A stretch of 64,000 nucleotides of DNA, from positions 1 to 64,000 of the forward strand of contig CALUPL010000057.1 of NCBI GenBank assembly GCA_944322635.1. The letters run 5' to 3'. This DNA comes from an uncultured Mailhella sp. GTDB taxonomy: Bacteria > Desulfobacterota > Desulfovibrionia > Desulfovibrionales > Desulfovibrionaceae. A model generated the notes under the pieces. The model had not been told where the DNA came from, ran no database searches, and worked only from the letters and a program-made list of their open reading frames with translations. The translations under genes were made by a program, and so were the position numbers. Positions 5,027-42,224 of this stretch are shown piece by piece; positions within the stretch are counted from its first letter, which is position 1; each line of letters opens with the position of its first letter.

Positions 5027-5055
5027 TTGACCCGTCCCGAAAACTTCAATAATAT
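5027..5055 (+). promoter_or_regulatory. CRISPR leader promoter
   Basis: TTGACC (5027-5032), a 17-bp spacer and TAATAT (5050-5055) form a sigma70-type promoter that would start transcription at about the first base of repeat 1 (5062). It is the repeat-proximal end of a gene-free stretch (4705-5061), AT-rich at 4760-4820, that serves as leader. Almost the same arrangement precedes the degenerate array at 33784. Its direction agrees with the trailer-end repeat decay at 6099. Confidence 0.6.
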
Positions 5056-5061
5056 GTCAGG

Positions 5062-6119: not shown

Positions 6120-6278
6120 TCTTCCCCGGTTGTGTTTTCCGTGCATGGACTGCGTTTTTCCCGCGTATGCGGACTTTTTCAGCCTCCGCCCGCCCCCGGA
6201 ACGAAAAATGCGCCTTGCCCCCGACCCCATTTCCCGTTTTTTCCGAGGCGAAAAACACGGTGAATGCGTGACGAAAAA

Positions 6279-14825: not shown

Positions 14826-16097
14826 ATGAACGGTCCCACCTGCGAATACTGCGGCCGCTGCCTCAGCGTGTGCCCCAGTTACCGGCATCATCTGGTGGAA
14901 ACCTTCGGCCCGCGCGCCAGAATCGATCTGGCCCGCGCCGTGGCTTCCGGGGAACTCGTTCCGGGCGAACGCTACCACGAAGCCATAAAAAGCTGCATGC
15001 AGTGCCTTGCCTGCACGGAAATATGCGGCAAGGGCGTGGACGGCGCACAGATCATTCTCGACGCGCGCCTTGCCGAAGGCGACGGCAGGCTCACCATGAA
15101 GCGCCGCCTCGAAAAGCTCGTCACCTGCGCCCTTCTGCCCCGACGCGAACTCACGCGCAAAGTCATACGCGCCTGTTCCTTGTTCCAGTGGATTTTCCCG
15201 CTGGATCGGCGCGGCAGCATACGGCATCTGCCCGACGCCCTGTGCGGCGCGGCCGGCAAGCGCAGCATGCCCGCTCTGGCGAAAAAATCCCTGTTCGACA
15301 TTCTGCCCGAACGCATCATGCCGCCGGACAACGTCACGCAGATTGGAGAAGTGGCGCTCTTTACGGGCTGCTTCGGCGGTCTCGTGAACGTGGAAGCCTC
15401 GCTTCGGCTCGTGAACGCCCTCACCGCGCGCGGCTATACCGTGTTTCTGCCCCGCGCCCAGTCCTGCTGCGGCGCGCCCGCCCAGCTCAGCGGCTTCGGC
15501 GACGCCTTTGAAAAGGCGCAGGCCCACAACGCCGAAGTGTTCGCCGCCTGCCCCGACATGCCCGTGCTCACCCTGTGCGCCACCTGTCACCGCACGCTCT
15601 CGCGGGAATATACCCTGGCGGGCAAGGAACTTGCCGGACGCATCGTGGACGCAGCCGTGTTCCTGCGCCGCCACGACGCCCGCTTCGGCTTCGATTCCCC
15701 CCTGCCGCCCCTGCCCGCAGCCGCCCTGCTGCGCCAGCAGGAACGCCCCATAAGCGCAACAGACCCGCTTGTCGTCGCCGTGCACGATCCGTGCCACTTC
15801 CGCCTCGACAACCAGGTCAAACACGCCATACGTGAGGAACTCGCCTCAAAACCATGGATAAAACTCGTGGAACTGCCCGACCCCGGCGCCTGCTGCGGCG
15901 GCGGAGGCATTTCCAGCCTTAAAAACCCCGACATAGCCGATGAACTCGGCGAGGCCAGAGCCCGCGCCGTCATAGAAAGCAGAGCCGACATCGTCACCGC
16001 CCAGTGCCCCGGCTGCGTGCTCCAGCTCAACAACCACCTGAAACGCCTCAAGGCAACCGCCAGAGCCTGCCATACCCTCGAACTCATTGGAAAGTAG
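14826..16097 (+). CDS. Iron-sulfur subunit with two CCG domains, GlcF-like
   Basis: This 423-residue partner of the upstream FAD oxidase has two [4Fe-4S] ferredoxin motifs: C6-x2-C9-x2-C12-x3-C16 and C57-x2-C60-x2-C63-x3-C67. Two cysteine-rich CCG domains follow, marked by SCCGAP in the middle and ACCGGGG near residue 350, typical of GlcF/HdrD-type proteins that relay electrons to quinone or other acceptors. It starts two bases after the glcD-like stop. The 3' end runs into repeat module C of the block at 16098-17207. Confidence 0.93.
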   Translation: MNGPTCEYCGRCLSVCPSYRHHLVETFGPRARIDLARAVASGELVPGERYHEAIKSCMQCLACTEICGKGVDGAQIILDARLAEGDGRLTMKRRLEKLVTCALLPRRELTRKVIRACSLFQWIFPLDRRGSIRHLPDALCGAAGKRSMPALAKKSLFDILPERIMPPDNVTQIGEVALFTGCFGGLVNVEASLRLVNALTARGYTVFLPRAQSCCGAPAQLSGFGDAFEKAQAHNAEVFAACPDMPVLTLCATCHRTLSREYTLAGKELAGRIVDAAVFLRRHDARFGFDSPLPPLPAAALLRQQERPISATDPLVVAVHDPCHFRLDNQVKHAIREELASKPWIKLVELPDPGACCGGGGISSLKNPDIADELGEARARAVIESRADIVTAQCPGCVLQLNNHLKRLKATARACHTLELIGK

Positions 16098-17207
16098 TGG
16101 AAGAGGACAGGCAGGAGCCACGGGGCTCCGCCCCGGATTGATTGGAAGGGAGACAGACCGGAGATGCGGGGCTCCGCCCCGTACCCCGCCGGGGGAAATA
16201 ATTCCCCCCGGGCCCCCCTGGTTCCGCCTTCGGCGGGTCGATTGGCTGGCCGGGCGCGGTTTCGGCTGCCATCTCAGTGCGGACGTGCGCTGTCGCGCCC
16301 GCCCGCCGTGCCGACGGTTGACCGGCTCCCGCCGCTCAACCGTAAAAAATAAAGAGCTTCACGACGGCGGCGACGTTTAACGCCGGAAGTGAATTCCGTC
16401 TACGCGCCTTCCGTCGGCCGGGCTCCTGATGTCGCCCGGGGCCCCAGAGCGTTGAAAGGCAGCCTCGCGGTACCCGCCGCTCAACCGTAAAAAAACAAGG
16501 AGTCGGGATATTCTCCCGGCTCCTTTGTGGTTTAAATTTCCTTTCTAAAAAACGTCCCGTAACTCTGGACTCCTCGGATATTCTGAGCGGAAATCGCCCC
16601 CACTCCATCCGTCCTGTCCCCAACCATCTGGAAATCCCATCCTTTGACACGACTGTCCGGCGCAGGCCGGACAGGAGTTGGCCACAGCAGGTGGGTCCGT
16701 GAGGACACACCTGCACTGAGACCGCAGACAAAACAGAGACGGCCAAGCACTCCCAAACCTTGCAGCCTGCCCCTGCCAGACGTCGCTTCGGCAACTCTCC
16801 CTGCCTTCCCGTCAACGCCTGCCGACCCGGCGAATCCGGGAGGCAGAATCAGGGGGGCGCGGGGGGAATTATTTCTGACCTTGCAGGAATCTGGAGCAGC
16901 TCAACGGCACATCTGCTCCAGATACGCTGTACTGACACAGGGCTTGCACGACGCCCGCCGCGCTTACGGCGGAAGTGAATTCCGCCTGCTTGCGGTCGTC
17001 GGCCGGGCTCCTGACGTCGCCCGGGGCCCCGGAGCGTTGAGAATCGGCCTTCCGGCCTCACATTCCCCCTTCGCCCATAGCTTCGGACATAATCTTCCCG
17101 TTCACCCTGTCCTGCCGGGCGGCGCAGCCGCACGGCAGAATCAGGGGGGCGCGGGGGGAATTATTTCCCCCGCATGCCTTTTCTGCCTTTCCTGCCTTTT
17201 CTCTCTT
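16098..17207. repeat. Intergenic repeat mosaic 1 (modules C, B, B, C)
   Basis: No gene is seen in these 1.1 kb between the convergent GlcF-like and branching-enzyme genes. Four modules shared with other gaps are recognisable. Module C in plus orientation (about 16160-16230), with the hairpin GGGGGAAATAATTCCCCC, follows the plus-strand stop. Module B occurs at 16357-16454 and 16916-17040, with the palindrome GGCGGAAGTGAATTCCGCC or a variant. Module C in minus orientation is partial at 16838-16872 and full at 17120-17205, the latter touching the stop codon of the minus-strand gene. The pieces are collapsed or partial compared with the blocks at 19.5, 31 and 63 kb. A transcription terminator lies at 16497-16525. 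Confidence 0.8.
16497..16525 (-). terminator. Strong hairpin terminator
   Basis: Bases 16497-16508 pair with 16514-16525 (12 bp with one G-U). On the minus strand a run of T (plus-strand A at 16488-16495) follows. It could end read-through from the branching-enzyme gene; on the plus strand it is followed by a weaker T-rich stretch. Confidence 0.65.
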
Positions 17208-19211
17208 CTAGCGTCTTTCGAGGACGAGCATGGTCAGCGGCGGCAGGTAAAGGGTGATATCCTGCATATCGATTCCGGTGGAGGCGTCGCTGAAGTGTTC
17301 GGTGGGAGGGGTATGGGGGACGAGGTTGCCGCAGCCGCCGAAGCGCGGCTCATCGGAGGAGAGGATTTCCACGTATTTCCCCGGCTCCACGCGGAAGCGG
17401 AATTCGGGTTCCGGGCGGGTTTCGTGGAAGTTGAAGGCGAAGAGGAGTCTGCCGCGGGAGAAGGCAAGCAGTCTCTTGTCTTCATGGATGAAGCGGAATT
17501 CCGGGTTCCGGGCGAAGTCGCGGCGGTGTTTATCCACAATTTCCTTCATCTGTGCCTTATCCCAGCGGGCAAGGGCGGCGTAGAAGGAAAGCTGGTCTTC
17601 GGCAAGCTGCCACTGCCGGTGGGCGTGTTCCTGGTCGTCGAGCCATTCGGGGTGACCGAATTCCGCGCCCATGAAGTTGAGGTAGCCTGCGTCGGCGGAC
17701 ATGAGGGTAATGCCGCGCATGAGCCGGTAGAGGGCCACGCCGCGGGTTTCGTTCCAGGTGGCGTTGAAGGGGCTCATGCGGGTGTACATGGCGTCGCCCA
17801 CGAGTCGCCAGATCATGGCATCGTCGCCGTTGATGCACTGATCGTGGCATTCCACGTAACTTATGGTACGGTCGTAGGGGCGATGATTGGTCATTTCGTA
17901 CCAGAGGCGTCCCATGGCGGACGGCGTTTTCACGTACTTGCCCCAGAAATCGGGCAGGCCCATGGCAAAGCGGTAATCAAAGCCGAGTCCGCCCTGTTCC
18001 GGGCGGCAGGTCAGGCCGGGCATGCCGCTGAATTCCTCGGCAATGGTCACGGCCGAAGGATTCAATTCATGGACAAGCTCGTTGGCCAGGCAGAGATAAA
18101 GCTCCCCGGCGGCGTTGGTACGACGGCTGCCGTCGGGCGCGTAGAAGCAGCGGCCCACGTGCTCGAAGCTGTCGCCTATGCCGTGATCGGTGTAGAGCAT
18201 GTTGCCCACGGCGTCGAAACGGAAGCCGTCCACATGAAACTCTTCCATCCAGTAACGGCAGTTGGAAAGCAGGAAACGGCGGGTCATGTCCCTGCCGAAA
18301 TCGAAGGACGGCGTACCCCACTGATTGGAGCGCTCATCGAAGAAATAGGAACTCGTATCGTAGCGCGCCAGTCCCTGCTCGGTATTGGCGCAGGCATGGG
18401 CGTGCGTAATGTCGAGAATGACGGAAAGGCCCAGACGATGCGCCTCATCCACCAGGCGACAGAATCCGTCCGGCTTGCCGTAGCGCGAGGAAGGCGCAAA
18501 ATAGCTGCTCACCTGATAGCCGAAGGACTTATAAAGCGGATGCTCCGGCACGCCCATGAGCTGCACGGCGGTGTATCCGCAGGATTTTATACGCGGCAGC
18601 ATGTCGCGGATGAAATCGTCGTAACTGCCTATGGAGCCGGGCGTGTGATTGCGGGCGTCCTGCGACATGCCAATGTGCGCCTCGTAAATGCGCGGGAACT
18701 TCGGCCGGACGGGACGGGGATGCCGGAACTCATAAGGCTTTTCTGGATTCCACACGCGGGCGCACCACATATCGGGATTGTCTTTGTTCTGCTCCACCCA
18801 GCGGGCGAAGGCTGGCACGCGGCGCACGATGCCCGGCTCTCCCGCTCCTTCCAGATGCAGCTCGTAGTAATCGCCGTGGGCAAGGGCATCCTTCGGCAGA
18901 TAGATGCGCCACAGTCCGCCGCCCGCGTTCACCATCTCCCATTCCGGACGGCGTTCGAAATTCGTGCGGTTTGAAACCAGCCACACGCGCGCAGCCTGCG
19001 GCATCCATTCCGCCATGAGCCAGGAGTCGCGCCCCTCAGGATCGGGAACCTGATGCAGCCCCAGCCTTTCATGCAGATCGGCATAATGCACAAGCGAGCC
19101 GTAGCCCCGGCGCAGACGCGCCGTTTCATCCTGAAAACGCTGCGTTCTCTCACGCAGAAAGGAGCGATAATCGGAAAGCTCATTGTCGGTCAACGGATTC
19201 AGAAGCGCCAT
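17208..19211 (-). CDS. 1,4-alpha-glucan branching enzyme, eukaryote-like type
   Basis: This is a 667-residue GH13 enzyme of the glycogen-branching type: it cleaves an alpha-1,4 chain and re-attaches it by an alpha-1,6 bond. It has an N-terminal CBM48-like region (about 70-150), then the (beta/alpha)8 barrel with the nucleophile Asp in GFRFDAVGNM (D333), the acid Glu in TIAEEFSGM (about 392-393) and the transition-state His-Asp in ECHDQ (456-457). A small all-beta C-terminal domain follows. The layout and length are those of the eukaryote-like (GH13_8) subgroup rather than E. coli GlgB. The start at 19211 is decided by AAGGAG six bases upstream; the track frame opens 19 codons earlier without a ribosome site. 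No other glycogen gene is near. Confidence 0.9.
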   Translation of the reverse strand: MALLNPLTDNELSDYRSFLRERTQRFQDETARLRRGYGSLVHYADLHERLGLHQVPDPEGRDSWLMAEWMPQAARVWLVSNRTNFERRPEWEMVNAGGGLWRIYLPKDALAHGDYYELHLEGAGEPGIVRRVPAFARWVEQNKDNPDMWCARVWNPEKPYEFRHPRPVRPKFPRIYEAHIGMSQDARNHTPGSIGSYDDFIRDMLPRIKSCGYTAVQLMGVPEHPLYKSFGYQVSSYFAPSSRYGKPDGFCRLVDEAHRLGLSVILDITHAHACANTEQGLARYDTSSYFFDERSNQWGTPSFDFGRDMTRRFLLSNCRYWMEEFHVDGFRFDAVGNMLYTDHGIGDSFEHVGRCFYAPDGSRRTNAAGELYLCLANELVHELNPSAVTIAEEFSGMPGLTCRPEQGGLGFDYRFAMGLPDFWGKYVKTPSAMGRLWYEMTNHRPYDRTISYVECHDQCINGDDAMIWRLVGDAMYTRMSPFNATWNETRGVALYRLMRGITLMSADAGYLNFMGAEFGHPEWLDDQEHAHRQWQLAEDQLSFYAALARWDKAQMKEIVDKHRRDFARNPEFRFIHEDKRLLAFSRGRLLFAFNFHETRPEPEFRFRVEPGKYVEILSSDEPRFGGCGNLVPHTPPTEHFSDASTGIDMQDITLYLPPLTMLVLERR

Positions 19212-20143
19212 GCCAAACTCCTTGCCAAGCCGTTCCATCATCAGTCCCGCTCCGCAGGACCTCTGCATCCCATTCCCTTCCGCAATCTGCCGCCGAAAGC
19301 GGCGCGCGGCTCTTTCCCTGAAGCATAACGGATATGAAGCCGGGGAGCAATCAATACGACAAAGACCTGTTTATTTCCGACGCGGACTTTCCCGACGGGG
19401 CTGAAAGACTGGCTGCCCCTCGCCGACAGACCTTTCCCGGAGGGCAAACACACGCCCTCCCTGAAAATCCATCTGGGAAATCCTTCCAAGCTCACCGATG
19501 TTGACGCAACGCGGAAACATCGGTCGGCAACCGCAGGCGGGCGCAGACCTTTTCCTACGCCGGAGTACCTCAGCCGCCCGTTTGCTCCAGACACGCTGTA
19601 CTGGCTGCAAAACTTGCACGACGCCCGCTGCGCTTTCGGCGGAAGTGAATTCCGCCTGCTTGCGGCCGTCGGCCGGGCTCCTGACGTCGTCCGGGGCCCC
19701 AGAGCGTTGAGAAATGGTTGAAGGGAAACACCCGGAGCGTTGAGACTGCGGAAAGAAAAAAACTCACGCTTTTTTGAACGTTGAGAAGCGGCCGTTCCGT
19801 GCAGCCGCTTTCTCCCGGAACGTTGAAACGACCGGCCTTTGCCTACGAAAGGTTCCCAGAGCATCAGTCAAACGCTCTGCCGTAAACATCTGGGAAATCC
19901 TTCCAGGCTCACCGATGTTGACGCAACGCGGAAACATCGGTCGGCAACCGCAGGCGGGCGCAGCCGCGCACGCCTGCCGAGCCTTCCGGCTCCGGCGTTA
20001 CCCCCTCTGCCCTCCCGCCTTTTTCGAAGACCGACTCCGGGCATCCGCACGACGCCCGCCGCTGCGGCGAAGCCGCAAGGCGAAACAGGGGGGCGCGGGG
20101 GGAATTATTTCCCCCGCACTGCCTTTCCTGCCTTTCCTGCCTT
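19212..20143. repeat. Intergenic repeat mosaic 2 (A-E-B then A-D-C)
   Basis: No gene is seen here. The first ~250 bp are unique sequence. Then two composites follow. A-E-B has A at 19471-19546, E at 19547-19588 and B at 19589-19711. A-D-C has A at 19821-19963, D at about 19985-20045 and C at 20060-20143. Module A contains CCGATGTT ... AACATCGG, an 8-bp stem with an inner CCGC/GCGG. Module C ends exactly at the stop codon of the minus-strand gene 20144. The A-D-C composite is nearly the same as those at 31139-31504 and 62892-63212. Confidence 0.85.
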
Positions 20144-22963
20144 TTACTTTTCGGCGTCGGCGCGGGCGGCTGCGGCCTCTTCGGTGAGGTACTGCACGGC
20201 GAGTCTTGCGGAAAGGGCGAGCTGGTCTTCGCGGGACATGGATTCGTCGTCCATTTTAGCGGTAAGCACTTCGTTCAGGATACGGCCTATCATGGGGCCG
20301 GGCTGGACGCCGAGGCGTTTCAGGTCGTCGCCGTTCACGTCGGGTTTCATCTGTCGGCCCATGTAGATGTAGCGCGTCAGTTTTTCATGCTGTTCGGGGT
20401 TGTCTTCCTGGGCCAGCAGGTAGAGCAGCGTTTCGAGGGGGGCGCGGCCGAGCATGCGGTGCAGGTCGCTGAGCGAGCCTTTTTTCTTTTCCCACTGGGT
20501 CATGCCGGAACGCGCGGCCATGATGGAGGCGCGTACCTGCATGGTCTCACGCTTGCGCTTGTCGGAAAACTGGAGTCTGTCGAGCAGGGATTCCACTTCC
20601 GGGGCGGGAGCGCGCCGGCACAGGGCAATGAGCATGAGCATGAGCAGATCCGGCTCTTCGGGCAGGTACATTCTCATGTACCATTCAAGCACGCGGCGCA
20701 CTCTGTCGGCCATGTCGCGCTTTTCGTCGTTCATGGCGAGAAGCGGATGCACTTCGGCAAGCAGGCCGAGTTCATCCATGCGGCGGAAGCCGAGATAGGG
20801 GTTGCGTTCCTCCATCATGAGTTCAAGCTCGTGGCAGATGCGCGAACCGGACAGGTGATGAATGAGGTGCAGATCGTCTATGGCATTGCGCATGAAGCGT
20901 TCGCACTGCACGCCCATGCGGAATCCGTAACGCTGCTCGAAGCGCACGGCACGGAACATTCGCGTAGGGTCTTCCACAAAGCTCAGAGCGTGCAGGGTAC
21001 GTATGCGCTTGTTGCGAATGTCCTCCTGCCCGTCGAAGAAGTCCACGAGCTGGCCGAACACCTGCGGATTGAGGCGTACGGCCATGGCATTGATGGAAAA
21101 ATCGCGGCGGTAGAGATCCATTTTGATGGAACCGCGCTCCACCTGCGGAAGCGCGCCGGGTTCGGAATAGAATTCCAGACGCGCAGTGGCTATGTCCACC
21201 TTGATTTCCGTGGTGTCGGCAAGATGCGTGCGGCGATGCTTTTCCACGTCGGCGCACAGGCTTTCGGCCGGAAACACCAGCATGGCGGTCATGAATTCCC
21301 GGTGTTCGCGCACGCGGCCCTTGAGACGTATGGCCAGATTGTGGGCAAAGGCCATGGCGTCGCCCTCAATGACGAGGTCTATGTCGATGTCCGGCCACTT
21401 GAGGCCCTTGCCGTCCATGACGAGATCCCGCACGAAACCGCCCACCACATAGACGGATGCGTTTATCTCCTGCCCTATTTCACCTGCCATGCGCAGAAAA
21501 TCGAGGCACGGCGCGGAAAGCCGCTTGCGCATGACGGAGGTAAGATTTCTTTCCTTGCGGGCCTTGCGGCTCACCGGCGGAATGTGCGCGCCGTTTTCGC
21601 CCATGAACAGACGTATGATGTCGGTGCGCGTGACCACGCCCACCACGGAACGGGTCATGAGCTCGGCCTCGCGGGCCTCCTCATCCGCTGCTTCCACGTC
21701 GCCGCCGCCCACCACGGGAATGAGCCTCTGCTGACAGCCCACCATGATATCGACAAGTTCCTGAATGCCCGCGCTTTCGGGCACCACGCTGAAGCTGCGC
21801 TGCATGTACATGCTCACCTTGATGTGCGCCAGCCCGTGACTCGACGCCTTGGCCGCGGTTTCCTGCGAAAGAATACCTATGCAGCGCTGCGTACCGTCAG
21901 CAAAAATGGGCACGGCCTTGAGTCCGTAGCGTATCATGAGCGCCTGCGCCTCACCTATGGTCAGCCGCTCCGAAGCCCCGAGTGCGGGACTCGTCATGAG
22001 CTTGCCCGCGTTTTCGTCGGCGTTCACGATGAGCGAAGCCTGCATTTTGAGAAAGTCGCGCACCTGGGGCAGCGTCATGTCCTTCACCGAGGCAGAGGCC
22101 GCGTAATAGTGCCCTCCGCCGCCGAGCCTGCGGCATATTTCGCCCACATCCACCAGAGGCGTGCGGCTGCGGCCCACCACCTGCACCTTGTCTTCCATGG
22201 AAGCCACGGCAAAAATCACGGAACAGTCCTCTATTTCCATGATGCGCGGGGCAAGCGTGGCAAAGTCTTCAAGAAACGTCTCGCTCTGCATGGACGATAT
22301 GGCCATGACCACCCCGCCGCCTATGTCGCGCGCCTGCGTGTTCTCCAGCATGGCGGAAAGAGCCTTGAGCTGTTCGCGCCCCATGACGCGGGTGATGAGA
22401 CGACTCACCACGGCAAGATCGGCCCCGCGGGAAAGCAGCCATGACGCAGCGTCGAAATCGCGCGGCGTGGTGGAACTGTACACGAACGAACCCGTATCGC
22501 CGTAAATGCCCCCGGCAAGAGACGTGGCAATTTCGCACGTCACCTCAAGGTTTCGACGGCGTATCTCCTCCACCAGAAACGTGCTCACCGCCCCCACTCT
22601 GTCATCCATCATGAGCGTGGCGGCAAGGCGGTCGTCGCCCTCGTCGTCGCTCAGCGGGTGATGATCCCATACGTGAATGTCGAGATCTCCGCGCTCCAGC
22701 AGCTTCTTCACCTGCGGCAGACGGCTTGCCAGATGCGTGTCCACCACCACGAGACGCCGCACCTGCGAAATGTCGAGCTCCCGCTGACTGACGCAGGGAT
22801 ACAGAGGCTCCACCACCTCGTCGTAGAACTCCTGCACCTGCCGCTCCTGACTGCCGGGAAAAAGCAGCACGGCGTCGGGATACAGCACGAGCGCGCCCAC
22901 CAGAGCGGCAAGGGCGTCGTTGTCGGCATTGGCATGACAGGTGATGACGGTTTCTGCAATCAT
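20144..22963 (-). CDS. tRNA nucleotidyltransferase/poly(A) polymerase with DHH and CBS domains
   Basis: This is a 939-residue multidomain protein. The N-terminal ~310 residues are a DHH-type phosphoesterase: CHANADNDALAA near residue 9, DHHPLSDDEGD near 100. Two CBS domains follow (about 320-450). Then comes the class II nucleotidyltransferase head with VYVVGGFVRDL and the catalytic carboxylates in WPDIDIDLVI (about 535), RRDFSINAMA near 640, and the RNA-binding C-terminal part. This long architecture is known from A-adding enzymes of deep-branching bacteria and deltaproteobacteria, where CC- and A-addition are split. That assignment here is by architecture only. The ATG at 22963 has AGGA upstream; a TTG at 22972 would sit directly on it. 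Confidence 0.88.
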   Translation of the reverse strand: MIAETVITCHANADNDALAALVGALVLYPDAVLLFPGSQERQVQEFYDEVVEPLYPCVSQRELDISQVRRLVVVDTHLASRLPQVKKLLERGDLDIHVWDHHPLSDDEGDDRLAATLMMDDRVGAVSTFLVEEIRRRNLEVTCEIATSLAGGIYGDTGSFVYSSTTPRDFDAASWLLSRGADLAVVSRLITRVMGREQLKALSAMLENTQARDIGGGVVMAISSMQSETFLEDFATLAPRIMEIEDCSVIFAVASMEDKVQVVGRSRTPLVDVGEICRRLGGGGHYYAASASVKDMTLPQVRDFLKMQASLIVNADENAGKLMTSPALGASERLTIGEAQALMIRYGLKAVPIFADGTQRCIGILSQETAAKASSHGLAHIKVSMYMQRSFSVVPESAGIQELVDIMVGCQQRLIPVVGGGDVEAADEEAREAELMTRSVVGVVTRTDIIRLFMGENGAHIPPVSRKARKERNLTSVMRKRLSAPCLDFLRMAGEIGQEINASVYVVGGFVRDLVMDGKGLKWPDIDIDLVIEGDAMAFAHNLAIRLKGRVREHREFMTAMLVFPAESLCADVEKHRRTHLADTTEIKVDIATARLEFYSEPGALPQVERGSIKMDLYRRDFSINAMAVRLNPQVFGQLVDFFDGQEDIRNKRIRTLHALSFVEDPTRMFRAVRFEQRYGFRMGVQCERFMRNAIDDLHLIHHLSGSRICHELELMMEERNPYLGFRRMDELGLLAEVHPLLAMNDEKRDMADRVRRVLEWYMRMYLPEEPDLLMLMLIALCRRAPAPEVESLLDRLQFSDKRKRETMQVRASIMAARSGMTQWEKKKGSLSDLHRMLGRAPLETLLYLLAQEDNPEQHEKLTRYIYMGRQMKPDVNGDDLKRLGVQPGPMIGRILNEVLTAKMDDESMSREDQLALSARLAVQYLTEEAAAARADAEK

Positions 22964-23049
22964 GAGGGTCAATCCTTTATGTTTTCCCCTCCCCGTAAGG
23001 AAGGCGTATTTTCAGACGGAACGCTTTTCGGCCGCACGCCGCAGTATCT

Positions 23050-24315
23050 TCACCCCGCGGACGAAGCCCGGACGTCCCCGCCCGTACCGTTTTCGTCTGC
23101 GTTTTCCGCGCCTGCCGTTCTCTCCTGCCCGGCAGAAACACGGTCTTCCTCCCCTTCCCCGGCAACGGCGGCTCCGCCCGATGCCGGGTGAAACAGATTG
23201 CGCGGATGGCAGCGACGGTACACGTCTTCCAGAAGGTCGGAACGCACATGGGTGTACAGCTCCGTGGCCGCAAGGTCACTATGACCGAGCAGCATCTGCA
23301 CGGTGCGCAGATCCGCCCCCCCTTCCAGAAGATGCGTGGCAAAGGTGTGCCGCATGGTGTGCGGAGAAATGTCGCGTCCTATGCGGGCTTCCAGCGCATA
23401 GCGGCGAATGAGCTTCCACACCGCCTGCCGGGTCAGCCCCCGGCCGGAACGGTTCAGAAAAATACGGCTGTCCTGCGGCATGAAATCCGGACGCACGTTG
23501 TTCAGATAGTCCTCCATGACCGCCACGGCACGCGCGTGCATGGGCACGATGCGCTCCTTGCGTCCCTTGCCGAACACGCGCACGACCCCGCTCTGAAGGT
23601 CAATGTCGAGCGGGCGCAGATTGACGAGTTCGGAAACGCGCAGACCGGAAGCATACATGAGTTCCAGCATGGCGCGGTCACGCCGACCGAGACGGCTGTG
23701 CCTGTCCGGCGCATCCAAAAGACGCATGACCTCCTCGCGGGAAAGCACGTTGGGCAGCACGCGGGGCAGCTTGGGACCGTCCAGAAGCTCGGCCGGATTG
23801 CCGCTCATGAGGCCCTGATCCACGCACCAGCCGAGAAAGCCCCGCAGACAGGAAAGCCGCCGCGCAAGCGTGCGCTTGCCGTCGCCGCGCCGCCTGAGCC
23901 ACACCACGAAAAGCAGCAGCTGCTCGTCGTCCAGCGAGGAAAGCGCCTGCCTCGCCGTGAGCTTCTCCGCTCCGCTCTCCTCAAGAAACGTCGCAAGCGA
24001 GGCTATGTCCTGCCGGTAGGAATCCACGGTCATGGGCGAAAGGCCGCGCACGGCAAAAAGCTCGTCGAGCCAGCGTTCCCCGAGGGCCCGCAGACTGTCG
24101 GAAGGCGCACTCTTCGCCGCAGAAAACGCCGTGGGCTTTTCCTTTTTTTCCCCCTCCTGCGGGGAAGAAGGCGCGTCTATGACGGCCTGCGCCTCCAGAA
24201 CGGCCGATTGTTCCGGCTCCGGAGTCCGCGTCTTGCGGGGGCGTCCGCGCCCGCGCTTCACGGGCGCAGTCCACGGCTCCAAGCCGGGAACGGCCCCCTC
24301 CTTTTCTGCCGCCAT
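23050..24315 (-). CDS. Tyrosine recombinase XerC/XerD type with extended ends
   Basis: This 421-residue protein has a ~300-residue core that is a standard Xer recombinase: SAM-like N-terminal domain, then catalytic Arg in ASGLRVSEL, Lys in GKGRKERIV, His-x-x-Arg in HTMRHTFATHLL, His in LGHSDLAATELYTHV and its nucleophile Tyr. Such enzymes resolve chromosome dimers at dif. Unusual are a ~75-residue N-terminal extension containing the AT-hook-like KRGRGRPRKTR and an acidic Gly/Glu-rich tail of ~40 residues. The start at 24315 has a perfect AAGGAGG six bases upstream. No phage or integrative element is visible around it, which favours a housekeeping role. Confidence 0.88.
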   Translation of the reverse strand: MAAEKEGAVPGLEPWTAPVKRGRGRPRKTRTPEPEQSAVLEAQAVIDAPSSPQEGEKKEKPTAFSAAKSAPSDSLRALGERWLDELFAVRGLSPMTVDSYRQDIASLATFLEESGAEKLTARQALSSLDDEQLLLFVVWLRRRGDGKRTLARRLSCLRGFLGWCVDQGLMSGNPAELLDGPKLPRVLPNVLSREEVMRLLDAPDRHSRLGRRDRAMLELMYASGLRVSELVNLRPLDIDLQSGVVRVFGKGRKERIVPMHARAVAVMEDYLNNVRPDFMPQDSRIFLNRSGRGLTRQAVWKLIRRYALEARIGRDISPHTMRHTFATHLLEGGADLRTVQMLLGHSDLAATELYTHVRSDLLEDVYRRCHPRNLFHPASGGAAVAGEGEEDRVSAGQERTAGAENADENGTGGDVRASSAG

Positions 24316-24987
24316 GCCGAACCTCCTTTTCCGGGGCAATGCCCCGCGCATGAACGTGCCGGAGTTTCGTCCGGTCGTTTCCTTAAATTAACGGCGTCGG
24401 ACAAGAGCGTCAACGTTCCGCACGGAAGGAAAACGCAAAACCGGACCTCTCCGACATGGCGCCGTCAACCCGGCCTCAACGACGTCCCAGCCCCGACAAA
24501 AACAGAACTGCCCCTCCTTCGAACATCCGGCCCCTTTCCGCAGAACTTCGTCCTTAACGCCCGACCTGCAAACGACAGCCCGTCTGCCAAACGGGAAGTC
24601 CGGCCCAAAAGCGCATTCGCCGCCTGCACGACAACGCGCCGTTTTTGCGAAAAACGTTCCGGCAGGCGGATCCCTCCTCTTTCCCGCGCGCGTTTTTTTC
24701 GTATCAAGCCTTTCCGCCCAGAACAGGAAGAACACGCGCCGGTGCGGCACGTCGTTAGGACAATCTTCGGAAGCAAAAAAGAAAAGAAATTAAAATTATC
24801 AGTGATTTCGCGCCCCGATTCACGGCGCTTCGAACCTTTTTCCTTGTGAGAAGCATGCCTTTGCTTGAGATTTGTCTCTCTCCTCCCCTTGCCATCGACC
24901 GTCCATGACGGTATTGTGATGGCGCTAAAAATGTTCTTCCGCCGTATGGCATGACTCTGTATCTTCCGGGTGTGTGATTTGCCGACG
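24316..24987. other. Gene-free divergent intergenic region
   Basis: About 670 bp separate the divergent recombinase and membrane-protein genes. The region is GC-rich to about 24750, then AT-rich (24760-24830), where promoters are likely. I see no repeat module, RNA motif or convincing promoter pair. Confidence 0.55.
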
Positions 24988-25968
24988 ATGAAAAAATATC
25001 TGCCGATTCTGGGAAAGCTTCTCGTTCTTTTCATCTGTGCGCTGGCCTGCTGGCTTCTCTACGACAAGCTCAAGCGTTACAGTATGGAAGAAATCATCGA
25101 CAGCATACTTCACATACGGCACAGGCAGCTTGTTCTTGCCGTGGTTCTCGTCGTCATCAACTACGCCATTCTCGTGGGCTACGACTGGCTGGCCGTCAAG
25201 GCCATACATCGCCGTCTGCCCTTCCCCAGAGTCTGCCTCGTCTCCTTTGCCGGTTCGGCGGTAAGCTACAATCTCGGCGCGCTGCTCGGCGGCACCACCG
25301 TGCGTTACCGCCTCTACAGCGCCTGGGGCTTCCATCCCATAGACATCGTACGGCTCGTGCTCATGCTGGCCGTCACGTTCTGGATAGGCGCGCTCGGCCT
25401 CGCCGGAGGCGTGCTGCTCTTTGCCAACGTGCACATTCCGCCGGAACTCGGTATAGAACCCGGCCATATCCGCCCGCTCGGCGCCGCGCTGCTCGGACTG
25501 TGCATAATCTATCTTCTTGTGTGCTGGTGGGCCAGAGGCCGCGCCGTGCACATTTTCAAAAAGGAATTCGCCCTTCCCACTCTGCCCATCGCCCTCGCTC
25601 AGACCGCCGTGGCCTGCGCCGACCTGCTCGTGGCCGCCGCCTGCCTCTATGTGCTTCTGCCCGAACGCAGCACCATAACCTTCGCCGACTTTCTGCCCAA
25701 CTATCTGCTTGCCCAGGTGGCCGTGGTGCTCACCCACGTTCCCGGCGGCGTGGGCGTGCTCGAACTTATTCTCATGCACATCATTCACGGCGTGAACCCC
25801 AAGCGTCTCTTCGGCGCCATTCTCGTGTTCCGCGTGCTCTACTATCTCGTGCCCCTGCTCATTTCCCTGATCATGCTCTTCGCCTACGAATTCCGCCTGC
25901 GTCGCCGCACGCCGGAAGAAATAGCCCGGGAAGAAAAGGAAACCGAAGAGCTGCCCGAACATCGATAG
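24988..25968 (+). CDS. Inner-membrane protein of the lysylphosphatidylglycerol-synthase TM (UPF0104) family
   Basis: This ~326-residue protein has about eight hydrophobic segments. It carries features of the LPG synthetase TM-region family: SYNLGALLGGTTVRYRLY around residue 90-107 and HVPGGVGVLELILM near 252. The C-terminus is charged (RRRTPEEIAREEKETEE). Members lacking the synthase domain are membrane proteins of unknown transport or lipid role. Start choice is uncertain: ATG at 24988 (MKKYLP) is preferred over GTG at 24970 because it begins at the natural basic N-terminus, yet neither has a clear ribosome site. A terminator follows at 26190. Confidence 0.8.
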   Translation: MKKYLPILGKLLVLFICALACWLLYDKLKRYSMEEIIDSILHIRHRQLVLAVVLVVINYAILVGYDWLAVKAIHRRLPFPRVCLVSFAGSAVSYNLGALLGGTTVRYRLYSAWGFHPIDIVRLVLMLAVTFWIGALGLAGGVLLFANVHIPPELGIEPGHIRPLGAALLGLCIIYLLVCWWARGRAVHIFKKEFALPTLPIALAQTAVACADLLVAAACLYVLLPERSTITFADFLPNYLLAQVAVVLTHVPGGVGVLELILMHIIHGVNPKRLFGAILVFRVLYYLVPLLISLIMLFAYEFRLRRRTPEEIAREEKETEELPEHR

Positions 25969-26189
25969 CTTTTCCTCCGTGCACGGCGCTACGCCTCTTC
26001 CTCCGGCGGCCCGTTCTCCCCGCGGAAAGGAATTCCCTTCAAGCCCCCTGCGCTTCCTCCGGCTTCCCCCTCGTGCGCCTCTGCGGCACGACGTGCGCAA
26101 CGATGCGCATGACGCATCGACAACTCCCCGCAACGCATTCTCCTCTCCCACACGACGGAAACAGCCTTCTTCCGCTCCCCCGTCTTTCA

Positions 26190-26219
26190 GGCCGCGTTCC
26201 TTTCGAGCGCGGCCTTTTT
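26190..26219 (+). terminator. Terminator downstream of the UPF0104 gene
   Basis: GGCCGCG (26190-26196) pairs with CGCGGCC (26208-26214) and is followed by TTTTT. It separates the membrane-protein gene from the outer-membrane protein gene. The rest of the gap 25969-26458 holds only the regulatory site listed next. Confidence 0.8.
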
Positions 26220-26233
26220 CCGTTGTTACGGCG

Positions 26234-26272
26234 CATGATAATCATGGCGCGACTTTTCACCGGAGCTATAAC
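26234..26272 (+). promoter_or_regulatory. Palindrome plus -10 box upstream of the outer-membrane protein gene
   Basis: CATGATAATCATG (26234-26246) is a 6-1-6 palindrome. Its core TGATAATCAT equals the centre of the Fur consensus. A good TATAAC box follows at 26267-26272 with no -35 hexamer at the right distance, the palindrome occupying that place. This suggests a regulated promoter with a ~180-nt leader for the gene at 26459. Fur binding is a guess from the core match. Confidence 0.4.
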
Positions 26273-26458
26273 TTGTGCATGACCCGCAATGCCGGACCAA
26301 TGTGCCGGGGCCAGTGAAAGCCTCAACTCCAAAGCCCCCCCCTTGCGCCGCGCTTGCCGAACGGCCGCGTTCTCCGCTCTTTTCTCCGCGGTACGTCTCC
26401 GCCCGAAACATTCCGGAAAACGCGCTCCTTTCTCTACACCTTCAACAGGAGAAACGAC

Positions 26459-27151
26459 ATGTTCAAGAAACTCGGAATGATGCTCATGGCCGCCTGCCTG
26501 CTGCTGCCCGTGCAGGCCAAGGCCGCGGACCTCATGGGCGTGTACGTCGCGCCCAAATTCGTGCTCAACATCCAGCACTTCAAGGGTATCGGTTCAGACT
26601 TCGAAGGCGACAGACTGCCCGGCTCCGGCTCCAAAGACGCCGCCCGTGCCGGCGGCGCGCTTGCCGTGGGCTACGACTTCAATCCCATGTTCAGCGTGCC
26701 CGTGCGCGCCGAACTCGAATACGCCGCCTACGGCAACTCCTCGCGTCATCTCGGCTTCATCGATCAGATCGCGGGCGACGCCCTGTCCGCCAAGCATACC
26801 GTCCGGTTCCAGACCCTTCTGGCCAACGTGTACTGGGACATCACCGACTTCTACGGCTTTACGCCCTATGTCGGCGGCGGCATCGGCATGGCCTTCGTGA
26901 AGAGCAAGGTCAACTACAACTACGACGGCGTCGGCGAACATGAGAACAGCTCCTTCTCCGATACCGACACCGTGTTCGCCGGACAGGTGGGCCTCGGCTG
27001 CTCCTACGCCTTCACGGAAAACATTGCCGCCGACTTCGGCTACCGCTTCCTCATGATGGGCGACGCCAAGGCCAGCAATCCCGGCATGTCCATGAAGAGC
27101 AAAGACATGTATGCCCATCAGCTCATGCTCGGCCTGCGCGTGACATTTTAA
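26459..27151 (+). CDS. Outer-membrane beta-barrel protein (OmpW/OmpA-barrel-like)
   Basis: This 230-residue protein has a clear signal peptide (MFKKLGMMLMAACLLLP, cleavage near AKAAD). The mature part alternates polar and hydrophobic residues with many Gly, Tyr and Phe, as in an eight-stranded barrel: GFTPYVGGGIGMAFV near 132, NIAADFGYRFLMMGD near 182, and a C-terminal strand ending in LMLGLRVTF with terminal Phe, the usual outer-membrane insertion signal. AGGAG lies seven bases before the ATG. It probably forms a small barrel or surface protein; the specific role is unknown. Confidence 0.85.
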   Translation: MFKKLGMMLMAACLLLPVQAKAADLMGVYVAPKFVLNIQHFKGIGSDFEGDRLPGSGSKDAARAGGALAVGYDFNPMFSVPVRAELEYAAYGNSSRHLGFIDQIAGDALSAKHTVRFQTLLANVYWDITDFYGFTPYVGGGIGMAFVKSKVNYNYDGVGEHENSSFSDTDTVFAGQVGLGCSYAFTENIAADFGYRFLMMGDAKASNPGMSMKSKDMYAHQLMLGLRVTF

Positions 27152-27862
27152 GGGGAGAGTATTGGCGCAAAGGCCCGTTGCTGACGGACACGCTTTACTT
27201 AGGCATGGCTTGCACGACGGGGCGGCGCTGAACGCCGGAAGTGAATTCCGCCTGCTTCGCCCCGTCGGCCGGGCCGCTCGAAAGCGGCCCGGGGCCCCAG
27301 AGCGCTGATAACCGGCCCTGCCGATTGCCACGGCATAAAGGCCCGTTTCAGACGGACACGCTTTACTTACGCAGGGCTTGCACGACGGGGCGGCGTTTAA
27401 CGCCGGAAATGAATTCCGCCTGCTTCGCCCCGTCGGCCGAAAGCGTTAACAGACGCAACGGCAAAACTCGCTTCCCGAAGCACCGGGAAAAACAAAATCG
27501 TTCTTCGGGGAGCGTTGAAAGGGGATAAGCTCTCCGCACAACGCTCCCCGGCTCTTTTAATTCTTCCTTCAACACCGCTGCTTCCGCAAAGCGGAACAGC
27601 GGTCGGCCACCGCAGGCGGGTGCGGCAGCACACGCCTGCACTGACGTTGCAGCCCGTAACGCGCCCGTCTGACACTCCGGCCTTCCTTCCCCCTGCCCTT
27701 TCACCATTTCCAGACACGCCCCCGAACGGTACCGCCGCGCGGCAAAGCCGCAAGGCGAACCATGGGGGTCCGGGGGAGATTATCTCCCCCGGCGGGGCCG
27801 GGGGCAGAGCCCCCGCTCTGCCTTTCCTGCCTTTCCTGCCTTTCTGCCTTTTCCTCCTGAGC
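27152..27862. repeat. Intergenic repeat mosaic 3 (variant B, B, partial A, C)
   Basis: No gene is present. Two shortened B modules (27186-27308 and 27353-27447) with altered ends are followed by unique sequence, a partial A (about 27590-27660) and a C module (27741-27855) with its GGGGGAGATTATCTCCCCC-type hairpin and AAAGGCAGG repeats. Unlike other C modules it does not face a gene: right of it come only a hairpin and a plus-strand transporter. The element may mark a lost minus-strand gene. Confidence 0.75.
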
Positions 27863-27907
27863 GGCCTGCCGGGAACGCCGTCAAACAGCGTTCCGGCGGG
27901 CCTTTTT
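27863..27907 (+). terminator. Long perfect-type hairpin with T tail
   Basis: Bases 27863-27878 pair with 27888-27902 with one bulge, followed by TTTTT on the plus strand. No gene ends just before it on either strand. Its place next to module C matches the hairpins found between module C and the genes at 46622 and 63558. Confidence 0.65.
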
Positions 27908-28046
27908 CGTTCGAAGCAGAGGCTGGTCAAGCGACACAAAAAGGGATTGCCGCATCCGTATGCACGTCGTTTGGTCTGTTGTTTGTGACAAAAAGGATTT
28001 TTATGCGGCATGGACAGACGGAGCATTGCGGCCTAGAATCCCGGCC

Positions 28047-28796
28047 ATGCGCGTGTTCAAGTCCCTTTTTGTACCTCTTCTCATTCTGTTTCTCTGGCAG
28101 ATCGTTTCCGGCATGGTATCGCCGTATCTTCTGCCCGGTCCTGCGCGCGTTCTGGAAACGGGGCTTCTCATGGCAAGAAGCGGCATTCTTCTGAATCACG
28201 TTCTGGCGTCGTTTTACCGCATTGCGGCGGGTTTTTCCCTGAGCGTGGTACTGGCGTTCGTCACGGCCGCCGCGCTGTACCGCTGGAAGGCTCTGGACGA
28301 ACTTTTTCAGGGCACGCTTTCCTTTCTGCGCATGACGCCGCCCCTTGCGCTCACGCCTCTGCTCATTCTGTGGCTCGGCATAGGCGACGCCACACAGATA
28401 GCCGTCATTGTTCTGGCCTCGTTCTTTCCCATCTATCTCAACACGCGCGACGGGCTTTCCCGACTTGACGCCCCCTTCCGTGAGCTTGCCGCCAGTCTTC
28501 ATCTTTCCCGCCTGCGCACCGTTCTGTTCTTTCTTCTGCCCGCGGCCACGCCGTCCATCATCATCGGTCTGCGCCTGAGCTTCGGCTACAGCTGGCGCGC
28601 GCTCATTGCGGCGGAACTCATTGCGGCCAGCAGCGGACTCGGCTACATGATCATGGACGCCGAGCAGATGCAGCGGGCCGACGAGGTCATAGTGGGCATA
28701 CTGGTCATTGGCTTTCTCGGCTGGGCGCTCGACGCCGCCTTTACCAATCTTTCCTCCGCGCTGCTCAGGCGGCGCTTTCCCGAGCTTGCCGCATGA
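28047..28796 (+). CDS. ABC transporter permease, SsuC/TauC/nitrate type
   Basis: This 249-residue inner-membrane protein has about six helices. It shows the binding-protein-dependent permease pattern: the EAA-type loop at LAASLHLSRLRTVLFFLLPAA around 155-175, and GLRLSFGYSWRALIAAELIA near 180-199, characteristic of the sulfonate/nitrate/thiamine-precursor family. It overlaps the ATPase gene by the four bases ATGA. The start at 28047 gives normal family length; the ribosome site is weak. It forms a three-gene importer with the next two genes. Confidence 0.9.
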   Translation: MRVFKSLFVPLLILFLWQIVSGMVSPYLLPGPARVLETGLLMARSGILLNHVLASFYRIAAGFSLSVVLAFVTAAALYRWKALDELFQGTLSFLRMTPPLALTPLLILWLGIGDATQIAVIVLASFFPIYLNTRDGLSRLDAPFRELAASLHLSRLRTVLFFLLPAATPSIIIGLRLSFGYSWRALIAAELIAASSGLGYMIMDAEQMQRADEVIVGILVIGFLGWALDAAFTNLSSALLRRRFPELAA

Positions 28797-29503
28797 ACGC
28801 GTCGGAAACAGCCGCCACATTCGCCCTTCTGCAGAACGTGCATAAATCGTTCGGCCCCCGCGAGGTGCTGCGGGGAACCGACATTCATCTGGCCCGAAAC
28901 GGCATCACCTGCCTGCTCGGCGCGTCGGGCTGCGGCAAATCCACGCTTCTGCGCATTGCCGCCGGGCTGGAAACGCCCGATTCCGGCCGCGTGCTGGTGC
29001 ATCCCGAAGAATGTGCCGTGGTATTTCAGGATCCGCGCCTCCTGCCGTGGCTCACGGCGGGAGAAAATCTGCGCCTTGCCCTGCCCTCATCCTGTCCGAA
29101 CGCCGCCGACCGCATGATTCAGGCACTCGCCATGGTGGAACTGCCGCCGGACACCCTTTCCGCCATGCCCCGCGAACTCTCCGGCGGCATGGCTCAGCGC
29201 GTGGGCGTGGCGCGCGCCCTTCTGCGTTCGCCGCGCATACTGCTCATGGATGAACCCTTTGCCTCACTCGACGCCATCACGCGGGAAAAACTTCAGCTCA
29301 TGCTGAAAAAACTCATGACCCGCTCCCTGTGCCTGCTCGTCACCCACGACATGGAGGAAGCTCTTCGCGTGGGCAGCCGCCTCTGCGTCATGGAACACGG
29401 CGTCATTTCCGAAAACTTCGACATTTCCGAAAACACAGGCCCCGAACGACGGAATTCCATCCGTCGCGACATTCTTAAGCATCTGAATACTAAGGAGTTG
29501 TAA
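28793..29503 (+). CDS. ABC transporter ATPase, SsuB/TauB/NrtD type
   Basis: This 236-residue ATP-binding subunit has Walker A GASGCGKST (about 43-51), Q-loop in VVFQDPRLLPW (about 76-86), signature LSGGM (about 127-131), Walker B ILLMDEPFASLD (about 147-158) and H-loop THDMEEAL. The RLLPW and DEPFASLD wording is typical of the nitrate/sulfonate/taurine family. Translation is coupled to the permease through an ATGA overlap, and the binding-protein gene follows after five bases. Confidence 0.93.
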   Translation: MNASETAATFALLQNVHKSFGPREVLRGTDIHLARNGITCLLGASGCGKSTLLRIAAGLETPDSGRVLVHPEECAVVFQDPRLLPWLTAGENLRLALPSSCPNAADRMIQALAMVELPPDTLSAMPRELSGGMAQRVGVARALLRSPRILLMDEPFASLDAITREKLQLMLKKLMTRSLCLLVTHDMEEALRVGSRLCVMEHGVISENFDISENTGPERRNSIRRDILKHLNTKEL

Positions 29504-29508
29504 TTATT

Positions 29509-30450
29509 ATGAAGATGCCTGGATTCACCGCCCTTGCCCTGGCTTTTTCCCTGTTCGCCGCACCCGCTTTTGCGGAAGAAGGCACACTCAACATCAGCTA
29601 TGTGAAGTCGCCCTTCAACCTTCAGATGATAGTCATGAAGGAACACAAACTGCTGGAAAAAAAGCTCGAACCCAAGGGCATTACGGTCAAATGGCATGAA
29701 ATAGATTCCGGCGCACAGCAGGCCACGGCCATGGCCTCCGGCGCTCTGGACGTGGGCGGAGTGCTCAATACCACCTCGGTGCAAATGGCCAACGCCGAAG
29801 GCAATCCGGTCATCATCATTGCCGGAGCCGCGCGCCCCACCGACGTGTTCGCCCTCGTGGGTCAGGAAAACGGCGCCAAAACCTTTGCCGACCTGCGCGG
29901 CAAAACCATTGCCGGTCCCAAGGGAACCGTGCTGCATCAGCTGCTCGTTGCCGGACTCGCCAAAGAAGGCCTCTCCATAAACGACGTGAAATTCGTGCAG
30001 ATGGGCATTCCTCAGAGCTTCTCCGCCCTCATGTCCGGCAAGGTCGATGCCGCCCTCATCGCCGCAGGCGCACTGGTCAAGGCCAAACAGGCGGGCAAAC
30101 CCGTCATAGCCACCGCAACCGGCCTCGTTACCCCCATACTCGCCATGTGCGCCAGCAAGAAATTCATTGAGGAACACCCCGACCTCGTCAAGGATGTCGT
30201 GGCCGTGCAGGATGAAGCCTACGACTGGGTCATGGCCAACCATAAGGAAGCCATTGCCCTCGGCGCCAAAGAACAGAACATTTCCGAAGCCGACGCCGAA
30301 CAGCTCTACGCCTGGTCCCACTACATGAAACGCCTCAATGAAAACGACGTCAAAAGCATCAACAACGATATGACCTTCCTTATCGAAAACGACATGGCCC
30401 GCCAAAAAGTCGATGCCCGTACCTTCATCCTCGATTCCGCCATGGAGTAA
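29509..30450 (+). CDS. Periplasmic binding protein of the sulfonate/nitrate-type importer
   Basis: This 313-residue protein has a signal peptide ending AAPAFAEE. The fold pattern is SsuA/NMT1/ThiY-like: LNISYVKSPFNLQMIVMKEH at the start, then SGALDVGGVLNTT near 78-90, DLRGKTIAGPKGT near 130, and the second-domain MSGKVDAALIAAGA. These proteins bind aliphatic sulfonates, nitrate or pyrimidines; the ligand is not deducible. AAGGAG stands 11 bases before the ATG. Placing the binding protein last in the operon is less common than first. A terminator follows at 30665. Confidence 0.9.
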   Translation: MKMPGFTALALAFSLFAAPAFAEEGTLNISYVKSPFNLQMIVMKEHKLLEKKLEPKGITVKWHEIDSGAQQATAMASGALDVGGVLNTTSVQMANAEGNPVIIIAGAARPTDVFALVGQENGAKTFADLRGKTIAGPKGTVLHQLLVAGLAKEGLSINDVKFVQMGIPQSFSALMSGKVDAALIAAGALVKAKQAGKPVIATATGLVTPILAMCASKKFIEEHPDLVKDVVAVQDEAYDWVMANHKEAIALGAKEQNISEADAEQLYAWSHYMKRLNENDVKSINNDMTFLIENDMARQKVDARTFILDSAME

Positions 30451-30664
30451 GAAAGAAGGGGGGAGATTTGCGGGGGAAGGGGAAAACCCTTTTGAAAAAG
30501 AGCTTTTCCCCTTCCCCCGCACCCCCATCCCCTTTCCTAAAACTTTTATTTTCCCGGGACGAAATATTCCCAGTTTTTCCCAAAGCCGTGCAGAATGCCG
30601 GGAACATCACCGCATACCGCCAAACTCTCCCACATTCCTCAGCACCACAGGCTTCAGAAACACA

Positions 30665-30700
30665 AAAGCCGCCGCCCGAATTCGGACGACGGCTTTTTGC
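30665..30700 (+). terminator. Terminator of the sulfonate/nitrate-type ABC operon
   Basis: A long hairpin pairs AAAGCCGCCG-like left bases with CGACGGCTTT on the right, around the inner palindrome CCGAATTCGG. One mismatch is present and TTTTT follows. It starts about 215 bp after the stop codon; the stretch between contains nothing recognisable. Confidence 0.75.
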
Positions 30701-30720
30701 ATGATGCACTTTTTTAATTT

Positions 30721-42215: not shown

Positions 42216-42224
42216 ATACAGGAA

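Follow-up and report, generated by a model that had tools for sequence, protein, structure and literature searches.

Dispersed repeats of bacteria are normally spread genome-wide. BOX of the pneumococcus, which is modular, and bcr1 of Bacillus cereus, which folds in an RNA-like way, are intergenic repeats of about 150–300 bp; integron attC and CRISPR arrays are directional and head-to-tail, with a fixed end where units join; and matS and KOPS act on both sides of dif. In the relevant parts of two accounts (PMC3733652, PMC2817692), REPs are described as sequences of 20–40 bp with a GTAG/CGTC tag, alternating in orientation within BIMEs, tied to RAYTs and usually found genome-wide, with GTAG-23 of T. 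roseum as the named exception to this spread, lying in blocks at few loci. A domain-restricted feature of roughly half a megabase, poor in repeats, is described for the terminus of Gemmatimonadota in part of a further account (PMC11237797).

The window, i.e., the whole stretch of DNA analysed here, comprises positions 1–64,000 of contig C57 of a draft Mailhella genome (G000; 2,588,160 bases, 112 contigs, 87.8% complete), and it was compared with four relatives of the same genus of gut bacteria (G018, G016, G008 and G010), of which G018 is assembled completely, its chromosome being a single contig of 3,168,613 bases. The first-pass annotation of the window had read a REP/BIME-like intergenic mosaic of at least five modules, with A-D-C at 19821–20143, 31139–31504 and 62892–63212, A-E-B at 19471–19711 and 30753–31060, and E-B at 62651–62813. 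A repeat search of the window finds repeats at all these places, the palindromes described for A, B and C can be read in the sequence, and the mosaic character is supported. The repeats are thus real, but E and B are not separate modules, forming one element of ~138 nt, nor are A and D, forming one element of two hairpins. The repeat unit of ~300 bp accordingly has three parts: E (formerly E-B), A (formerly A-D) and C, a terminator-like palindrome. Further copies lie elsewhere in the window (Table 1).

Table 1. Repeat arrays and other features of the window; small letters in an array name stand for elements on the opposite strand
Feature	Position	Strand	Composition	Surroundings and remarks
CRISPR array	5051–6129		61-bp spacing
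Array caEACEC	16190–17186	+	C ~16190–16234 (−), A 16273–16344 (−), partial E 16357–16457, A 16647–16720, internal C with broken right arm 16850–16875, E 16909–17042, terminal C 17142–17171	further copy; between convergent genes 14826–16097 (+) and 17208–19268 (−)
Array AEAC	19492–20128	+	A 19492–19546 (truncated in hairpin-2 loop), E 19577–19712, A 19909–19977, terminal C 20086–20116	stops 16 bp from the stop of a tRNA nucleotidyltransferase-like gene, 20144–22972 (−)
XerD gene	23050–24351	−	433 aa, N- and C-terminal extensions	XerD model 330.7 bits (cut-off 329.6)
Array EEAC	27174–27791	+	E 27174–27310, partial E 27341–27446, A 27572–27644, variant C up to 27791	further copy
Long near-perfect hairpin	30440–30546			just 3' of the stop of gene 29509–30450
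Array AEAC	30841–31476	+	truncated A 30841–30895, E 30926–31062, A 31227–31299, terminal C 31432–31462	stops 30 bp from the stop of an AAA ATPase gene, 31506–32822 (−)
Stray CRISPR-like repeat	33949–33989		single ATTTTCCCCATGCATGTGGGGGTGTTTC	28 kb from the CRISPR array, inside or beside a gene
Two long direct repeats	40286–40855		about 70 and 99 bp, 360 bp apart	gap after gene ending at 40133; unrelated to E-A-C
FMN riboswitch	42220–42365	+		95.4 bits
Solitary A	46235–46307	+	hairpin 1 divergent, perfectly paired	further copy
Array EEACEC	62557–63425	+	partial E 62557–62646, E 62677–62815, A 62979–63053, C with left arm cut in the loop at 63209, E 63240–63378, terminal C 63393–63424	further copy at 63240–63425

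The further genome-wide copies that the first-pass annotation had proposed to look for are likewise present: in the draft genome the A-E-B query has at least 59 matches (40 of 82 candidates scored) and the A-D-C query at least 65 (40 of 85 scored). The pattern of the A stem, with up to three mismatches, finds 19 forward and 10 reverse sites there, some counted on both strands as the stem is palindromic, and the reversed pattern used as a control finds none on either strand, which excludes a chance origin of the repeats. Several contig ends of the draft fall within repeats, so that the repeats are probably under-represented in it. Profile searches with nhmmer, run for three to four rounds over the first set of sampled stretches, returned 107 matches for E, 96 of them longer than 100 nt, and 75 for A.

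The E element carries three covarying stems. It opens with a conserved lead, GACACGCTGTAC...CTTGCACG, followed by stem 1, for which many copies have GACGGGCAT/ATGCCCGTC. Next come the inner stem, GGCGGGA-GTGAA-TCCCGCC, and stem 3, CCGGGC-TCCTGATGTC-GCCCGG, with CCCAGAGCGTTGA after it; of 142 copies, 103 have GTGAA as their inner loop, which is compatible with a GNRA-like fold. The A element, ~75 nt long, consists of two adjacent hairpins joined by a constant linker, GTCGGCCACC, the second hairpin being GCAGGTGGGTCC-GACA-GGACACACCTGC with CACTGAG after it, while C is the palindrome GGGGGGAATTATTTCCCCC, preceded by a small stem-loop of its own and CAGGGGGGCGC. Many array ends (20112–20147 and 31458–31504 in the window) have a short run of TGCCTTTCC-like units separating the terminal C from the stop codon; this run also has matches in other Mailhella genomes that include neither E nor A.

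Among 57 diverse copies of E, 24 pairs are paired in 95.1% of cases, and 13 of the 24 have changed on both sides. These changes amount to 152 cells as against 52.2 in shuffles, a control that keeps the columns and ignores relatedness, and none of 500 shuffles reaches 152; when the partners are slid by 1–3 columns, a control that keeps relatedness, at most 45% remain paired and nine such cells are left. Hairpin 2 of A (42 copies) is paired at 99.4%, with seven of its 11 pairs changed on both sides, in 58 cells as against 19.6 in shuffles. Thus, the covariance analysis that the first-pass annotation had proposed reveals compensatory changes in E and in hairpin 2 of A, rather than stems varying without compensation. 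Hairpin 1 is too variable in sequence from copy to copy for the aligner to register; folded singly, each of 56 distinct sequences gives one stem-loop, 51 of them with z < −2, in a set where five of 85 copies were unparsed and many copies from G000 had been shortened by the parser, with weaker energies as a result. The one copy of E that was folded whole does no better than its shuffles (z of −0.39 on the plus and −1.18 on the minus strand). Base pairing is conserved in both elements, although covariation alone does not separate RNA from hairpins of single-stranded DNA. Above threshold, Rfam recognizes just the FMN riboswitch and tRNA in the whole window and nothing in the arrays; at E ≤ 1, a search of 16090–31600 gives no match in the arrays either, the listed matches all falling on another hairpin at 30440–30581. 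This very long hairpin draws chance microRNA matches, and hairpins like it at other gene ends constitute a second type of gene-end repeat.

The elements are strung together by a strict directional grammar, which was counted over same-strand runs in G000, G016 and G018. Of the 121 runs free of contig edges, the last element is C in 112, E in five and A in four. The transitions are EC 76, AC 72, CE 58, EA 45, EE 15, AE 11, CC 3 and CA 0; that is, C is followed by E or C alone and never by A. A terminal C has an intact right arm, TTTCCCC, in 98 of 112 runs (the other 14 being unparsed), and an internal C before E reads TTTCTGACC in 40 of 58, with similar or other broken forms in nine, two unparsed and seven intact. 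The commonest C-to-E junction is AATTATTTC|TGACC, others being AATTAT|GACATG (at 63209 in the window) and GGGGG|ACAGGG (contig C66 of G000); all types sit in the loop or an arm of the C palindrome, and a new whole C comes after. The A element, too, is interrupted in a loop: where it precedes E-B in G000, the cut falls at profile position 55 of 75, within the loop of its second hairpin. Units may therefore join at hairpin loops, or composites once made in this way may have been copied by recombination. A local duplication of the C arm at each addition of a unit was considered as a general rule and rejected, because in G000 and G016 the C arms follow the type of unit (AC or EC) and not the array; G018 arrays are more homogeneous, and in the C66 array of G000 a long identical arm flanks E on both sides. 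The flanks of G000 and G018 are too diverged for an empty-site comparison to reveal target duplication, and global alignments of G016 and G018 arrays display gain or loss of units with blurred borders.

The arrays also have a preferred position beside genes, the context being that given by a home-made gene caller trained on Pfam-verified genes, on which all the following context numbers depend. The sampled DNA of four genomes has 134 arrays, 117 of them with a clear neighbor on both sides, and these lie in 45 convergent, 58 tandem and 14 divergent gaps, the background of gaps of at least 100 bp being 114, 325 and 121, respectively. The share of gaps with an array in the repeat-bearing part of G018 is 20 of 38 for convergent, 22 of 99 for tandem and six of 37 for divergent ones. 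The C end points at a stop codon in 85 of the 117, and lies within 60 bp of it in 54 of these 85.

It is on the scale of the whole chromosome, and there alone, that a further property becomes visible: the family is confined to one domain. All 67 matches of the E covariance model in G018 (150 of 2,495 first-look candidates scored) lie between 198,998 and 732,075, i.e., in 533 kb of 3.17 Mb or 16.8% of the chromosome, as do 50 of 50 sites of an exact E pattern; of 75 sites of a C pattern, the 45 listed are all within 199–713 kb. In 168 kb sampled outside the domain, with 80 intergenic stretches, no E, A or C was found, and a local repeat partner is present in two of these 80 stretches (a single pair) as against 62 of 216 inside or just left of the domain. 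The edges are softer for the other elements, since A (34 bits) and C (39–60 bits) occur at 780–785 kb and two weak C at 138.7 kb; arrays are densest at about 320–430 kb. The presence of dnaA inside had suggested an origin-proximal domain, an idea given up as the terminus lies near 21 kb (by the flip of the skew and a dif-like sequence) and the origin near 1.7–1.9 Mb by GC skew. The domain thus takes up part of a single replichore and begins at a distance of 178 kb from this dif-like sequence.

The same segment bears the repeats in the other species. In G000, whose contigs were sampled because they bear repeats (C102, with one C site, being left out), all 13 sampled contigs have protein matches at 208–718 kb of G018, C56 by three of its 17 genes alone. 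The repeat-bearing stretches of G016 map to this syntenic segment, and so do those of G008, where 43 E matches fall in C27:705–979 kb and C28:237–434 kb apart from one weak outlier outside the domain, at C27:94,811; past 434 kb, C28 (1.27 Mb) has no E. The repeat-bearing contigs of G010 number ten, of which nine map to the segment and the last lacks protein matches, and none of ten G010 contigs picked irrespective of repeats has an E in the stretch read, one of these (C35) mapping to the segment. Even the left edge is conserved: the two genes that flank the first array are the same at 199 kb of G018 and at C27:705 kb of G008, and contig C29 of G010, which carries E copies, spans the same edge. 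More broadly, the E model has at least one match in 15 of 19 Mailhella genomes (39–67 in five, 1–12 in ten, none in four), and a DNA query matched 13 of 41 genomes, all of them Mailhella, and none of 22 from 17 other genera. In the genome_contigs collection, matches to an exact E pattern are confined to contigs of the uncultured Mailhella sp. isolate BRZ_NM__bin46, and a pattern from A has no match.

Within the segment, single positions can be followed from species to species. Comparable gaps of G016 and G018 have 16 arrays in common, 11 empty in both and none differing; those of G000 and G018 have 12 in common, 12 differing (nine G018-only, three G000-only) and 66 empty in both; and those of G008 and G018 have two in common and seven differing (three G008-only, four G018-only). 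Orientation is equal in all 30 shared arrays, two of them from G008, whereas the order of elements differs in 26 of the 30. Outside its own array, an E copy has its most similar counterpart within its own genome in 39 of 42 cases for G000 and in 25 of 25 for G008; homogenization is weaker in the close pair, at 35 of 60 for G018 and five of 15 for G016. Units of G000 are less alike within one array (0.796) than between arrays (0.879), for which reason local duplication alone fails as an account. Array positions are thus old and sequences are homogenized within species; the conserved positions could also mean that the family hardly moves now.

Taken together, these observations may be seen as describing a new repeat family of the genus Mailhella, composite in build, non-coding and folding into hairpins, with the unit E-(A)-C, a recombination-amplified and domain-restricted mosaic working like BIME or BOX, a reading to which we give nearly even chances. 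For it speak the covariation, the grammar, the domain, the conserved positions and orientation, and the homogenization; to be set against it are the outlying E of G008, the reach of A and C past the E domain, the weaker homogenization in the close pair, the folding energy of the whole E copy, and the fact that no excision product, circle or dated new insertion of units was seen. On this reading, the C palindrome beside a stop codon would serve as the joining point for further E(-A)-C units, such that arrays end in an intact C. The units would have no transposase of their own, being non-autonomous, and arrays would gain, lose and exchange units via recombination between copies of C or by insertion into the loop of the C hairpin. 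Only sites close to each other in the folded chromosome would exchange and reseed units, which would keep the family in one domain, and pairing would be retained because the hairpins serve at gene ends as RNA or, while units are exchanged, as single-stranded DNA.

Several other explanations have to be weighed against this one. That these are REP/BIME elements mobilised by a RAYT, as the first-pass annotation had suggested, agrees with the gene-end position and the BIME-like mosaic build, as well as with a Y1_Tnp gene ~0.6 kb from a large EC array of G018 (322,118–322,465). Yet this gene, rejected as the driver, is a degenerate IS200 TnpA (109.5 bits) without a RAYT match, which by eye has lost the HUH histidine pair of its relatives. 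No RAYT was found: seven Y1 proteins from four genomes, with part of the Y1 matches of G008 among them, score 109–152 bits as IS200/IS605 TnpA (cut-off 55), and with the RAYT model six of the seven reach 30–36 bits (cut-off 80) and one has no match. The Y1_Tnp genes of G000 are on contigs without repeats and none is on a repeat contig, the units are far longer than REPs, and a GTAG/CGTC-tagged palindrome unit of 20–40 nt is absent from the element alignments, the CGTC in stem 1 of E being part of the 138-nt structure; this explanation is mostly refuted and highly improbable. The tyrosine recombinase of the window, in the densest part of the domain, is XerD, a housekeeping enzyme for which no link to the repeats was found. 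A low-GC island at 458–467 kb of G018 places Rep_1, ParB-like, ERF and DUF3150 proteins beside an E-E pair (459.8 kb) within the domain, and was rejected as a general driver because a search for Rep_1 homologs in all sampled DNA found that copy alone. The reverse transcriptase domain RVT_1, expected if the repeats were fragments of a retroelement such as a group II intron or retron, is absent from G000, G016 and G018, with one match of 39.3 bits in G008; plasmid and phage records do not match the repeats, nor do viral contigs match the exact pattern. It can also be imagined that the segment was acquired once, anciently, by a large transfer or fusion from a lineage with genome-wide repeats, and has since undergone decay and homogenization alone. 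The sharp left edge common to G018, G008 and C29 of G010 would follow from such an event, as would the positions largely kept between G016 and G018; but the segment carries ordinary core genes (dnaA, xerD, tRNA nucleotidyltransferase) at a GC content like that of the rest of the genome, and the species-specific arrays, which occur both ways in G000 and G008 against G018, all lie within it, so that we consider this quite improbable.

Two further explanations assign the repeats a function. They might act as RNA, either as structured elements of the 3'-UTR or as a non-coding RNA that is oriented and has C as its terminator, with a role in mRNA stability, termination or antisense control. The covarying stems of E and of hairpin 2 of A, the recurrent GTGAA loop, the C ends near stop codons and the depletion of divergent gaps, in the G018 domain as elsewhere, all point this way. 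The absence of the repeats from ordinary gene ends elsewhere in the genome is left unexplained by it, however, and the excess of G-U over A-C cells in E is small (about 48 to 35, counted by hand) and the arrays have no Rfam match above threshold; we hold this RNA reading to be unlikely. Alternatively, the arrays might be a polar chromosome-organizing or segregation element comparable to matS or KOPS, in which numerous oriented sites of a single domain would be recognized by a protein or by the machinery of replication or segregation. This draws on the confinement of E to one domain with 57 of 67 copies of G018 on the plus strand, on the orientation kept in all shared arrays, and on the 104 of 132 arrays (38 of 45 in convergent gaps) that run opposite to the leading strand, as judged from the GC skew of the stretch. 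The strand of the genes does not explain this bias, since 3' ends with a gap in the G018 domain are balanced between 89 plus and 86 minus genes, but the binomial p-values for orientation are too small, orthologous arrays having been counted in more than one species and not being independent. A domain on one replichore alone, 178 kb from the dif-like site, is moreover unlike matS and KOPS; the units are composite, ~300 bp long and tied to gene ends; and half of the comparable array-bearing gaps of G000 and G018 are not common to both. An organizing element is therefore rather improbable.

On the most far-reaching reading, the E-A-C arrays would mark a physical domain of 0.5 Mb on one replichore, within which exchange would have gone on since before the five species split, the rest of the chromosome staying free. 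Either the arrays would build this domain, as oriented anchors to which a protein or the replication fork responds, or the contact frequency of the domain would limit where the repeats recombine; we hold this conjecture tentatively, at somewhat less than even chances. In either version it would amount to a repeat family fenced in by chromosome architecture, and we know of no other such family in bacteria. One syntenic half-megabase with kept orientation and homogenized sequence in five species would then be a natural record of which sites exchange DNA, and in one organism it could be tested whether nucleoid domains restrict recombination or transposition in the course of evolution, and also whether structured gene-end repeats can themselves define a domain. 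There is a practical side as well, in that the arrays coincide with contig ends in short-read Mailhella assemblies and hence matter for genome reconstruction from gut metagenomes.

In the open-access literature searched, neither a family of this kind from Mailhella or Desulfovibrio nor similar domain-restricted repeats turned up. With REPs and BIMEs, as far as the cited parts of their accounts describe them, the E-A-C arrays share high-copy intergenic palindromes in mosaics, a position near 3' ends and mostly in convergent or unidirectional gaps, rarely in divergent ones, and compensatory changes in stems. They differ from these in their units of ~300 bp arranged head-to-tail, without tag or RAYT and in one domain rather than genome-wide, and because they fail in tag, size, RAYT and genome-wide spread, the family is not filed here as a REP. 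A parallel might also be struck with BOX and bcr1, which are similarly modular (BOX) or folded (bcr1), intergenic and of like size, though to our knowledge these have no sequence relation to E-A-C, no domain confinement and no directional grammar ending in C. The directional, head-to-tail order and the fixed joining end recall attC and CRISPR arrays; unlike them, the E-A-C arrays have no cassettes and no linked integrase or Cas gene, their units are not unique, and there are about 50 short arrays in place of one. Finally, restriction to a chromosomal domain of roughly 0.5 Mb, or an orientation tied to replication, is something that they share with matS and KOPS and with the terminus domain of Gemmatimonadota, yet they differ from all of these as long structured repeats that occupy a single replichore and are tied to the ends of genes.
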